64,000 nucleotides of DNA, taken from contig JAHHHW010000072.1 of NCBI GenBank assembly GCA_019359115.1, positions 1 to 64,000 on the forward strand, given 5' to 3'. Every line of letters begins with the position of its first letter. Within the stretch, counting starts at the first letter, position 1. Source of the DNA: Pelatocladus maniniholoensis HA4357-MV3 (GTDB taxonomy: Bacteria; Cyanobacteriota; Cyanobacteriia; Cyanobacteriales; Nostocaceae). A program made the position numbers and the translations under genes. Under the pieces are notes generated by a model. The model did not search any database. It had not been told where the DNA came from and saw only the letters and a program-made list of their open reading frames with translations. Below, piece after piece: positions 4,384-62,145 of this stretch.

Positions 4384-4515
4384 TAGTACCTATAGAGATC
4401 GTGGTGAAGAACACAGCAATCCTTAAACTTTGATACACATAAGATAATATGACAATTTCACTGGTTAGAACTAAAGACACTCGGTTCTTTTTTTGCGCGA
4501 TCGCTCTTCAAACTC
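4384..4515 (-). promoter_or_regulatory. Leader and promoter region of the haemagglutinin gene
   Basis: This segment lies between the start codon and the 21-bp repeat array and is conserved in the duplicate at 490-640, which suggests it holds the promoter. I cannot assign -10 and -35 boxes with confidence. A HIP1-like GCGCGATCGC lies at about 4495-4504. Confidence 0.35.
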
Positions 4516-4740
4516 CAAATGTCTCACTTGAAACAGGAAACTTCTGACTTGAAGTAGGAAACTTCTCGCTTCAAACAGAAAATTTCTCACCTGAAACAGC
4601 AAACTTCTCACCTAAAACAGGAAACTTCTTGCTTCAAACAGAAAATTTCTCATCTAAAACAGCAAACTTCTCACCTGAAACAGCAAACTTCTCATCTAAA
4701 ACAGCAAATTTCTTGCTTCAAACAAGAAACTTCCCGTTTT
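4516..4740. repeat. 21-bp tandem repeat (about 11 units)
   Basis: Units of 21 bp begin at 4516, 4537, 4558 and so on, with the last partial unit at 4726. The consensus resembles GAAACTTCTCACCTGAAACAG. On the plus strand most units read through as a heptapeptide of the type Q-T-S-H-L-K-Q, interrupted by a TAG at 4555-4557, so a long protein is not encoded. Two diverged units sit in the duplicated region near 632-675. Unit variants alternate (CTTC, CCTG, TCTA inner words), which indicates old expansion with homogenisation. Confidence 0.9.
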
Positions 4741-4818
4741 AATCCTTAGCGGTATATTTTCAAAGCAGAAATCTAGAAAATGAAAATTTCTTGGTGTCTT
4801 AGTGTCTTAGTGTTTCAA

Positions 4819-13422: not shown

Positions 13423-13430
13423 GCACCAAG

Positions 13431-13564
13431 CCCATATCCCGCCTCATAATTAAGGAATGAGGCTAATAGCATAAGTCCGTTTTAACGGACTCAAACACCG
13501 TCCTAGTCAGATTTATCTGACTTTCGCTATTAGCCAATAAATTTATTTATTGGCGGGATATGGG
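13431..13564. repeat. Nested multi-hairpin repeat element, variant 1
   Basis: A perfect 13-bp outer stem pairs 13431-13443 with 13552-13564. Inside are a weak hairpin (13444-13460), a perfect 10-bp middle stem (GGCTAATAGC 13461-13470 with GCTATTAGCC 13526-13535), two hairpins inside that stem (AGTCCGTT/AACGGACT at 13474-13491 and AGTCAGAT/ATCTGACT at 13505-13522) separated by a 13-base linker, and a final hairpin CAATAAAT/ATTTATTG at 13535-13552. The same layout with different stem sequences occurs at 22425-22550 and 61856-61981. It may act as a transcription end for ppx. Confidence 0.85.
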
Positions 13565-13582
13565 GTTGATGCAAGATATGAT

Positions 13583-13726: not shown

Positions 13727-13799
13727 CTGAAGCCAACGCAACGGCAATAAAGCGGGAGGAACATCCACGCCGCTTTTTGCCTCCCCTAGTTAAGATTTA

Positions 13800-14095
13800 C
13801 TTTATAAATAGTCTTTTATCCTCGTCGTCGAGTCTTTGATCTCCGTCATCGAGTCTTTGATCTCCGTCGTCGAGTCTTTGATACTCATTAATGAGTCTTT
13901 TATCCTCGTCGTCGAGTCTTTGATCTCCGTCATCGAGTCTTTGATACTCATTAACGAGTCTTTGATCTCCGTCATCGAGTCTTTGATCTCCGTCGTCGAG
14001 TCTTTGATACTCATTAACGAGTCTTTGATCTCCGTCGTCGAGTCTTTGATACTCATTAATGAGTCTTTGATCTCCGTCATCGAGTCTTTTATTTC
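13800..14095. repeat. 21-bp tandem repeat array (about 14 units)
   Basis: Units of 21 bp of three kinds alternate: GAGTCTTTGATCTCCGTCATC, GAGTCTTTGATACTCATTAAC and GAGTCTTTTATCCTCGTCGTC. All three of the following frames stay open: two on the minus strand (13797-14159 with L-D-D-G-D-Q-R heptads and 13802-14155 with K-D-S-M-T-E-I heptads) and one on the plus strand (13836-14189, S-L-I-S-V-V-E). Because 21 is a multiple of 3, open frames are expected from any stop-free unit, so I do not call a gene. A small coiled-coil protein from the K-D-S-x-x-x-I frame is the best alternative. Confidence 0.9.
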
Positions 14096-14207
14096 GACGA
14101 TAGGGAAAAATGATGAAAAATATTCTCTGTGTCCTCCCCTTGTCCTCCTGATCAAGCAACTTCTTGGTGATCTACGCAGTCATAGGTGATCATTAGTTGA
14201 AGCCTAT

Positions 14208-22380: not shown

Positions 22381-22587
22381 CTACGGTGTACACACAAGTC
22401 AAAATTTTTCATGTTGAAACTGTATCCCGCCTAGAACTAAAGTTCCAGGCTCATAGCGAAAGTCCACTCAAGTGGACTGGAACAAACTTTTTTTTGAGTC
22501 CTCTGAAGAGGACTTGCGCTATGAGACTCGGAATTTATTCCGAGGCGGTACAGATGCGCTCAACCTAGATTTGTGTGTACACCGTAG
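22381..22587. repeat. Nested multi-hairpin repeat element, variant 2, copy a
   Basis: Perfect 17-bp inverted boxes (22381-22397 CTACGGTGTACACACAA, 22571-22587 its inverse) enclose a nested fold. The outer pair is CCGCC 22427-22431 with GGCGG 22544-22548. A hairpin GAACT/AGTTC lies near 22433-22445. The middle stem is CTCATAGCG with CGCTATGAG (22450-22458, 22517-22525). Inner hairpins are AGTCCACT/AGTGGACT (22461-22478) and AGTCCTCT/AGAGGACT (22497-22514), and the last hairpin is CTCGGAAT/ATTCCGAG (22528-22545). A third copy of the 17-base box lies at 22649-22665. Bases 22381-22550 reappear inverted at 61856-62025. Confidence 0.9.
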
Positions 22588-22670
22588 CCTTGCAAAGGGG
22601 AGGGAACAGTTTCCCCTCTTTGCAAGGGGGGATTAAGGGGGGTAATTCTTGTGTGTACACCGTAGAGATG

Positions 22671-39856: not shown

Positions 39857-40584
39857 AGCTATTGTTCCTAAGATGACTTCATTTAGTCATTAGTGAGTTG
39901 CATCTGTAAGTGAGGATTATCCCATTTTGAATGAATACAAATTGGGATAGATACAGTAATCAAATTTAATTCCTGAAATTACTTGTTCAGAATCATATCT
40001 ATAGGAATCCAGTTTGGTTTATGAACTTATTAGTTGAGTCAGGGAACAGGGAACAAATATAATGATGACTTACTTAACCGTTATTTTACTGAATTAATTG
40101 AAAATATATGTCAGAAATATTACGGATAAAAATCTAAGAGTTTTACTTAATTTGTTTAAGTTACACCAGAATCCTTAGATAGGCTATAGTAGTACCACGT
40201 AACTATACTGAGAATAAAAAATCATAAAAAGACAACAAAGAAAACTAAGGTATCACCCAATTACTCAATATTTATCTAAGTCAGTAGGCGAAAATAAACA
40301 TCACTGTGTAGAGAAATATAAAATCGCTGAAACCCTTACCAATGAAAAATGACGACCCTCACGAGTTAGCTTTATTTGTGCCGACCTGACTTGAAAATAG
40401 ATCTAGGGGTGTAAGGGTGTAGGGGGTGTAAGAAGAGTCATATTTTTATTCACCCTGGTGTACGCAGTTCAGTCAGGGCTACTTAGCACAGATCAAAAAG
40501 CTAAATAAGATAACACTGCTTGCGATAGAAGCCAGGAATAATGTACAACTGTTACGCTTCAATCTGTAAATAAACTGAAAATTA
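39857..40584. other. Long intergenic region
   Basis: 728 bases between divergent genes. I see an AT-rich stretch, a short GGGTGTAAGGGTGTAGGGGGTGTAAG repeat (40409-40435) and no convincing reading frame or RNA fold. It could hold an unrecognised non-coding RNA. Confidence 0.4.
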
Positions 40585-50068: not shown

Positions 50069-50141
50069 TACCCCCAGGGGAATTCGAATCCCCGTTACCT
50101 CCGTGAAAGGGAGGTGTCCTAGGCCTCTAGACGATGGGGGC
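50069..50141 (-). tRNA. tRNA-Glu (anticodon TTC)
   Basis: The 73-base gene on the minus strand begins GCCCCCATCGTCTAGAGG. It has the anticodon arm CCTCC-CTTTCAC-GGAGG with TTC, and a T-arm GGGGATTCGAATCCCC. The 3' acceptor strand TGGGGG pairs with CCCCCA, and discriminator A is at 50069. CCA is not encoded. In cyanobacteria tRNA-Glu also feeds tetrapyrrole synthesis. Confidence 0.95.
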
Positions 50142-61818: not shown

Positions 61819-62145
61819 TTTTGTTCAACTACATTTATTTGCGATCGCTTAATAGTACCGCCTCGGAATAAATTCCGAGTCTCATAGCGCAAGTCCTCTG
61901 AAGAGGACTCAAAAAAAAGTTTGTTCCAGTCCACTTGAGTGGACTTTCGCTATGAGCCTGGAACTTTAGTTCTAGGCGGGATACAGTTTCAACATGAAAA
62001 ATTTCAACTTGTGTGTACACCGTAGCCGCTTGCGGGGAGGGGCGGTTTTGGCGTTAGACAAAACCGGGGTGGAGTTCAAAGGGAATATAAGTAATCAAGC
62101 GAACCTGATACGATATAGCATCCCAAAATCATTCGTGAACATTAA
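61819..62145. other. Intergenic repeat-rich region upstream of the transporter operon, left part
   Basis: It contains the variant 2 structured repeat (61856-62025), a following G-rich word CCGCTTGCGGGGAGGG (62024-62039), and ATATAGCATCCCAAAATCATTCGTGA (62114-62139), which recurs in similar form at 39555-39585. Confidence 0.6.
61856..62025. repeat. Nested multi-hairpin repeat element, variant 2, copy b (inverted)
   Basis: Exact-length (170 base) inverted copy of 22381-22550, with about four differences counted by eye. Two of them are the loop bases of the AGTCCTCT hairpin (GA in one copy, TC in the other, as if that hairpin had flipped). The outer CCGCC/GGCGG, the middle CTCATAGCG/CGCTATGAG and all inner stems are kept, with TTGTGTGTACACCGTAG at 62009-62025. 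Confidence 0.9.

Follow-up and report, generated by a model that had tools for sequence, protein, structure and literature searches.

A nested palindromic module of filamentous cyanobacteria resembles REPIN- and PATE-like mobile DNA and is carried by several kinds of miniature transposon

TnpA-Y1 proteins recognise hairpins in single-stranded DNA and cleave near the hairpin foot. In the REP and REPIN systems with their RAYT protein (TnpA-REP, class 2 TnpA-Y1) a high-copy inverted pair of palindromic units adjoins the Y1 gene, and in-frame insertions are reported in section 12 of PMC6006769. Subclass 1.2 of TnpA-Y1 (Quentin et al. 2018) has the motifs DH[IV]H, WQ and Y---Q--HH, and in the passages of PMC6006769 devoted to it the subclass is low in copy number, occurs in Cyanobacteria and Bacteroidetes, and is credited with no REP and generally no terminal structures. 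According to the corresponding passages of PMC3119063 the PATEs of Haloquadratum are fused palindromic ends of Y1-type elements from which the gene is absent, and the Rickettsia palindromic elements (RPE) are described in part of PMC10969869 as palindromes of about 150 bp lying in frame in genes.

In the module described here, as in a REPIN, palindromic units form a high-copy inverted pair, present in at least 95 loci of the genome and adjoining a Y1 gene. It differs from REPINs in being a six-stem nested unit of about 120 bp, and in that none of 116 flanks has GT[AG]G within 10 nt of the foot; 26 of 58 copies contain the motif at some place inside the module. With the PATEs it appears to share the joined palindromic ends of Y1 elements without a gene, whereas PATEs, as presented in those passages of PMC3119063, are of the IS605 type without terminal inverted repeats and the present module also travels in DDE-type MITEs. 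Its carriers resemble MITEs of IS4-family and ISAs1-like transposons in their outer ends and target duplications, but the module itself is independent of the ends and common to several end types. Nezha, reportedly a cyanobacterial MITE, can be likened to it by description and not by sequence. The same is true of the likewise cyanobacterial MITEs of Anabaena sp. 90, one group of which is drawn with three inverted-repeat sets in a figure of PMC3542288. The reading we favour, with a probability of roughly 0.57, is that the module is a REPIN/PATE-like mobile DNA element of a Y1 transposase whose motif resembles that of TnpA-Y1 subclass 1.2, and that it is also carried by DDE transposons.

The first-pass annotation of the window (the whole stretch of 64,000 nucleotides that was analysed) had described nested structures of the same order at three places, and all three were found there with their stems correctly described. 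The module, which measures about 118-130 bp and comprises six stems in two inverted halves, runs from CCGCC (P1) through the P2 hairpin, the mid-stem arm GGCTAATAGC (P3), an AGTC-initial hairpin (P4), a linker, a second AGTC-initial hairpin (P5), the mid-stem arm GCTATTAGCC (P3) and the P6 hairpin to GGCGG (P1). All three copies are real and lie outside the listed open reading frames of the window. The copies at 22425 and 61856 belong to a single subfamily (A) read in opposite directions, 98% alike over 172 nt, which the annotation had missed and which makes them nearly one sequence for the purpose of covariation. The copy at 13431 belongs to another subfamily (B) and aligns with the minus strand of the copy at 22425. 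The fold energies of the three are -61.8, -58.6 and -59.4 kcal/mol, with z values of -9.98, -8.16 and -6.95 against 200 shuffles each. Folding a single A copy gives a minimum that is partly rod-like instead of nested, and wholly so at 22425; the nested fold of these copies is established through comparison between copies.

Table 1 Features of the window, the Y1 gene with its flanking module and half-module, and the end types of the carriers. Direct repeats are counted per end pairing or copy against controls.
Feature	Position or sequence	Strand	Basis or remarks
Core module, subfamily B	13439..13556	+	Sequence, fold, alignments A3/A5, covariance-model match 133.3 bits (copy itself part of model)
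Subfamily-B core, stem P1	13439-13443/13552-13556	+	
Subfamily-B core, hairpin P2	about 13444-13460	+	
Subfamily-B core, mid-stem P3	13461-13470/13526-13535	+	
Subfamily-B core, hairpin P4	13474-13491	+	
Subfamily-B core, linker	13492-13504	+	
Subfamily-B core, hairpin P5	13505-13522	+	
Subfamily-B core, hairpin P6	13536-13551	+	
Left extension of outer stem, CCCATATC	13431..13438	+	Sequence; pairs with 13557-13564; not general in the family beyond the first base
Left type-B terminal repeat, remnant (GCACCAA; TATCTT part altered)	13423..13429	+	By-eye comparison with intact copies
Right type-B terminal inverted repeat, TTGATGCAAGATATGA	13566..13581	-	Sequence and type-B copies
Full-length subfamily-A element, 207 bp, core inside	22381..22587	-	17-bp terminal inverted repeats 22381-22397 and 22571-22587
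Core module, subfamily A	22427..22548	-	Covariance model 119.9 bits on -, 96.4 on +
Extra solitary type-A end, downstream of the 22381-22587 element	22649..22665	-	Terminal-end search
Core module, subfamily A, inverted relative to 22427-22548	61858..61979	+	Covariance model 119.8 bits; window self-comparison
Right type-A terminal repeat of the 61858 copy; left end gone	62009..62025	-	Terminal-end search, sequence
tRNA, only Rfam match of the window at gathering	50069-50141	-	Rfam
Y1 gene (L284)	G000:C68, frame about 39952-40416		PF01797; bracketed by module and half-module
End type A	CTACGGTGTACACACAA		Direct repeats in 7/17 end pairings, six of 10-12 bp; control mean 1.2, maximum 5
End type B	CTGATATCTTGCACC		4-bp duplication in 12/28; control maximum 4
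End type C	CATTGGTGTCAACTTAAG		Direct repeats >=7 bp (8-9 bp) in 14/31; control mean 2.4, maximum 7
End type D	CAGGGCTATTTCATTCT		8-9-bp direct repeats in 7/7; control mean 1.1, maximum 5
Possible end type E			2 copies, no duplication

The extent given in the annotation was in one sense too small, since the transposable unit can be larger (the 207-bp element with its 17-bp ends in Table 1), yet the conserved module does end at the outer stem. Beyond it, the adjoining base is paired in 38 of 57 copies and the next nine positions in 11-19 of 57, near the chance quarter. A target duplication was looked for at the 207-bp element and none was seen. Of the other two copies, 13439-13556 is left with one good end, and 61858-62025 lacks its left one. 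The window also contains arrays of a 21-nt tandem repeat, unrelated to the module, at 13777-14112 and 4485-4754.

The pairing was quantified in an alignment (A5) of divergent copies, taken from 73 representatives at no more than 85% identity, without copies longer than 140 nt or containing N; 15 truncated or degenerate copies were removed before alignment, a step that favours the fold, and 58 were kept. Thirty-four of these came from loci fetched with a pattern that fixed AGTC, GACT, the T-NN-A tips of P4 and P5 and most of the mid-stem, and 24 did not. Over 45 pairs, 95.0% of 2605 pair cells were paired, compared with 30.1-46.8% when the partners were slid; 32 of the 45 pairs were changed on both sides, and there were 443 doubly changed cells against a mean of 124.6 in shuffles, none of 500 shuffles being as high. 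The compensatory change that the annotation had read from three copies is thus borne out on a far broader basis. In the smaller alignment A3 (17 copies) 93.5% of cells were paired and 13 pairs had double changes (53 cells against 17.1), and further pair types did not rise above the shuffles (194 of 500 as high).

It is clear from the same alignment that wobble is rare. Only 1 of 348 cells was G-T in the six freely varying pairs of P4 and P5, the only ones quoted for these stems because the fetch pattern fixed the others, and the counts were 26 of 809 in P2 and P6, 14 of 288 in P1 and 6 of 580 in P3. Because of this rarity the constraint looks like one on DNA and not on RNA. The T-A pair enclosing two bases at the hairpin tip is found in 58 of 58 copies for both P4 and P5 (24 of 24 for both in the rows fetched otherwise than with the tip-fixing pattern), in 55 of 58 for P2 and in 50 of 58 for P6, and the loops are mostly NA in the left half and TN in the right half. 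The triplets of P4 and P5 agree by dyad in 3 of 58 copies, where 5.4 are expected, while the two arms of P4 match each other in 53 of 58, so the two halves behave as independent units. P2 and P6 agree by dyad in 163 of 348 letters, against 162.0 by chance. With neither P4/P5 nor P2/P6 showing dyad likeness and the P4 arms matching, it is therefore local hairpins that are kept, and not one long rod.

A GA/TC exchange in one loop had also been noted in the annotation. It is real, and it proved to be an inversion of the whole palindromic hairpin: the first hairpin has TC in 8 of 27 subfamily-A cores, and the second shows an AA/TT flip in 5 of 27, all four combinations being present (15, 7, 4 and 1 copies; 27 of the 28 subfamily-A loci were counted, and one did not fit the expression). 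In three loci (L022, L024 and L027) a hairpin arm now carries the reverse complement of the outer flank in place of its own sequence, perhaps through one event because the change is the same in all three. Such loop flips and flank-derived arm copies are what make the hairpins seem to form in DNA, and module loci would in that case be a natural record of hairpin formation in DNA. They also mean that part of the covariation may stem from arm copying and not from selection. Taken to its end, this argument would have template switching at hairpins copy arm to arm and keep the pairing by mutation bias, without any selection on the fold, and both the flips and the flank-derived arms speak for it. 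Yet the single-base stem changes in subfamily A are few and uncompensated, many families have the stems in the same order, and the constant tips and motifs, which argue for selection on sequence too, are left unexplained. We regard mutation bias as a rather unlikely explanation of the whole.

The search with a covariance model that the annotation had proposed, for the genome and its relatives, gave many more than three copies, and the outcome that it had named as a refutation, three copies alone and no covariation, did not arise. With the model from the 17 copies of A3, at least 95 distinct loci were found in the own genome, a lower bound based on 145 strand matches at E<=0.1 among 150 scored candidates, and the module was matched in 45 of the 59 genomes of the relatives search, the own genome included. 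A broader model (R2) applied to 386 cyanobacterial genomes with strict filters and nine scored candidates per genome gave matches at E<=1e-6 in 63, again including the own genome; these tallies describe the genomes searched and not all cyanobacteria, and the sampling was partly by structure-bearing patterns. Among the matches listed for a long exact pattern in named genomes are Fischerella, Westiellopsis, Nostoc, Symploca, Scytonema, Calothrix, Microseira, Argonema, Microcoleus and Rivularia; 80 of the 98 stretches fetched by exact pattern entered one follow-up search. Two records of named plasmids match the type-D element, while in viral contigs neither the long module pattern nor any relative of the Y1 protein described below was found. 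What is described is an abundant repeat of filamentous cyanobacteria. Our literature search found no earlier description of it, and when its motifs were sought as literature text none of the matches listed had a title on cyanobacteria; Elhai 2008 and Wolk 2010, either of which may contain a prior description, lay outside the search, as did Nezha (Zhou 2008) and the Anabaena 90 MITE supplement.

The own genome has three matches to Y1_Tnp (PF01797), one of them with a stop codon. At the Y1 gene on contig C68 (Table 1) a full, diverged module ends about 130 bp upstream of the frame and is followed by two tandem P2-like hairpins, and on the 3' side an AGTC hairpin overlaps the stop codon, with a linker and then a right half-module behind it. 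Of 115 nt, 113 are the same in the upstream module and in the stretch downstream. This is the arrangement expected if modules are the joined flanks of a gene-less Y1 unit. Mojavia (L185) and an uncultured cyanobacterium (L192) yielded two further members of the clade, at 67% identity. In Mojavia a right half lies directly 3' of the stop codon and modules lie on both sides, the left half being missing; in L192 the Y1 gene lies about 200 bp downstream of a module and the downstream half is missing. All three clade members thus lie within 300 bp of a module (366 partly overlapping sequences, 2.3 Mb), and for the other Y1 matches an AGTC hairpin occurs within 1.5 kb in 0 of 3, one of which is at a locus edge. 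The loci of L185 and L192 were fetched by module pattern, which biases their closeness to modules, and hence we give as a baseline that 9.3% of locus bases lie no more than 300 bp from a module, a low value because the strict expression behind it counts well-kept modules only. Among 72 unpaired halves from a regular expression none was recognised around a gene; the expression missed the halves flanking the Y1 genes because they are too diverged.

The annotation had suggested a single-stranded DNA substrate for a Y1/RAYT-type transposase and a search for a RAYT or IS200/IS605 enzyme. The first part gains real support from the Y1 gene standing between a module and a half-module and from its two relatives beside modules in other genera, but the 154-aa protein is not a classical RAYT: in contrast to REPIN/RAYT systems it scores 23.9 bits against the cut-off of 80 of the NCBIfam RAYT model NF047646, and it is nearer to IS200/IS605, with 90.7 bits against the cut-off of 55 of NF033573 and matches to solved TnpA chains such as that of ISHp608 at 1.7e-9. 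The motifs NHIH/DHIH, WQ (WQRGY) and YVKNQK[AEQ]HH are present in L284, L185 and L192, so that, going by the motifs given in PMC6006769, the Y---Q--HH and WQ motifs of subclass 1.2 occur in all three. As far as that account of the subclass goes, the present proteins differ from it in their multi-copy nested palindromic flanks and in the NHIH found in two of three (L284 and L185; L192 has DHIH). Two Bacteroidetes plasmid Y1 proteins found by tblastn, in Persicobacter and Bernardetia, also have inverted palindromic flanks. The Persicobacter protein is a distant member (33% identity, YIQNQKFHH) with hairpin arrays on both sides, and its downstream flank has 12 matches in its own plasmid, itself included, and 13 in the plasmid of a second species; the Bernardetia flank has only 2 matches in its own plasmid, itself included, and its inverted repeats were judged by eye.

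According to the reading as a Y1-mobilised element, the module would consist of two half-units in inverted order, each made up of two hairpins and one arm of the central stem, and these would answer to the stretches on either side of a small Y1 (HuH) transposase gene, the gene itself being absent. The Y1 protein would bind the folded single strand, on the lagging-strand template or as a displaced strand, with the T-NN-A tips that are constant in the hairpins, together with AGTC and CTAATAGC, as putative recognition marks, and by cutting near the module foot it would multiply the module in trans. Modules may then have landed in IS4-type, ISAs1-like and two further miniature transposons, and these DDE carriers would amplify them further by double-strand transposition. 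Against this reading stand the many copies with DDE-type ends and target duplications, which were moved by other enzymes, and the published table in which subclass 1.2 is listed as 'no' for REP and as generally without terminal structures, unless nested forms were missed there. The composition of the flanks at the module foot is not strict, and no bare module was found together with an empty site free of DDE ends, so that the boundaries and the target of a Y1-moved module are undefined. A more specific version, which we advance tentatively and at slightly under even odds, is that the orphan HuH subclass 1.2 has this nested palindrome as its cognate DNA, hitherto unrecognised: a six-stem two-half substrate with T-NN-A tips that is multiplied as a single strand, then becomes cargo of at least four unrelated DDE systems and so reaches in-frame positions in genes. 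If this is true, a published orphan family of single-strand transposases gains a substrate that can be tested at the bench, and with it a new type of transposase/repeat pair.

The same module is found inside elements with at least four kinds of ends (Table 1), and copies without recognised ends also exist. Type-A elements often lie inside CCCC...GGGG palindromes. The type-C ends are identical to those of a 1.45-kb IS in another genome with an IS4 family product, and the type-D ends nearly equal CAGGGCTGTTTCATTC, the ends of an IS whose visible protein part matches DDE_Tnp_1_assoc and which we take to be ISAs1-like, so that for carriers C and D both the ends of a known transposon and a target duplication are at hand. 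In counting duplications, offsets of up to 2 nt were allowed, as was one mismatch from 9 bp on, and some type-A cores were counted with alternative end pairs. No parent transposon was found for type A by exact-end searches of G002, G003 and G028 and, in the own genome, among 100 of 127 ends; a 1.4-kb candidate at L224 was a 145-bp type palindrome split by an ISAs1-like IS, and two further candidate regions had no open reading frames of 90 aa. A type-B parent was not found in G000 and G003, locus L228 included.

These carriers could mean that the module is mere cargo of ordinary MITEs moved by DDE transposases, with the fold retained because small transposons are well served by palindromic interiors, and that its Y1 neighbours are accidental. 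The known parent ends of types C and D and the direct repeats, which exceed the control maximum for types A to D, are in keeping with such an origin. However, ends A, B and C are also found around quite different interiors, so module and ends are separable and the module is dispensable for DDE transposition, and yet a single module recurs within four end types; nor would cargo status account for a Y1 gene that stands between a module and a half-module. We consider cargo status alone unlikely, and on the preferred reading, that of a Y1-mobilised element, one DNA module would be used as cargo by several unrelated transposon systems. Among the other interiors, the own genome has type-A ends around a tandem array of units of about 21 bp (TTGAATTCGGGTAGTCGTTTA-like) at L003:1773-2118 and L018:1799-2041, with perfect target duplications of 10 and 11 bp, and, at L014:1718-1862 and L049:2592-2736, 145-bp elements that have 11-bp direct repeats and enclose a long GATCCCCC/GGGGGATC palindrome between type-A-like ends. 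Type-B elements are inserted into other members of the module family at L140:5811-5971, in the loop of an AGTC hairpin, and at L037:1489-1657.

Open frames cross the module in 9 of 149 scanned loci (11 strand-frames; copies of the own genome were outside the scan). Of 6 module-crossed proteins, 5 have Pfam domains: three carry DUF4347, which matches two stretches in each of them, one is a restriction-modification methylase and one a family-2 glycosyltransferase. A shared peptide, xRxGINSLANSESPLKxT, is seen among the in-frame copies. In G035, 5 of 18 examined loci are module-crossed genes, two of them with two modules each. As with RPE, then, in-frame insertions are found in unrelated genes, of three protein kinds by Pfam, but here they occur in other bacteria, with a Y1 gene nearby, and in a minority of loci. 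Homologs of the glycosyltransferase were matched in 5 of 16 genomes: in G038 and G040 the matches on the two sides of the module position abut or are separated by 12 nt, in G199 and G300 the loop is filled by a different insertion, and in G293 there is a gap of similar size. A selfish coding palindrome of the Rickettsia type, kept for the peptide it inserts, would account for the frames, the domains and the common peptide, but 140 of 149 loci have no such frame and homologous glycosyltransferases hold other insertions in the same loop, so tolerance of insertion is enough and we hold this explanation to be very unlikely. Besides a possible transcription signal, an RNA had been suggested at first. 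A structured non-coding RNA, or an RNA-level signal such as a terminator or mRNA stabiliser, fits the stable fold, the strong covariation and the position of the window copies outside listed frames, but is highly improbable given the rare G-T pairs, the nearly equal scores of both strands in many copies of the 386-genome search, the copies in frame in genes, and Rfam searches, which at gathering gave only the tRNA for the window, and for one relative only matches far below the gathering scores.

A sister nested-hairpin repeat, with a mid-stem like GGCTACACAAACAAAG in place of GGCTAATAGC, is present at L124:6374-6496 and at about 560-760 of L221, where it is bounded by type-B-like ends. At L191:1822-2060 a left half-module is duplicated in tandem together with its flank.
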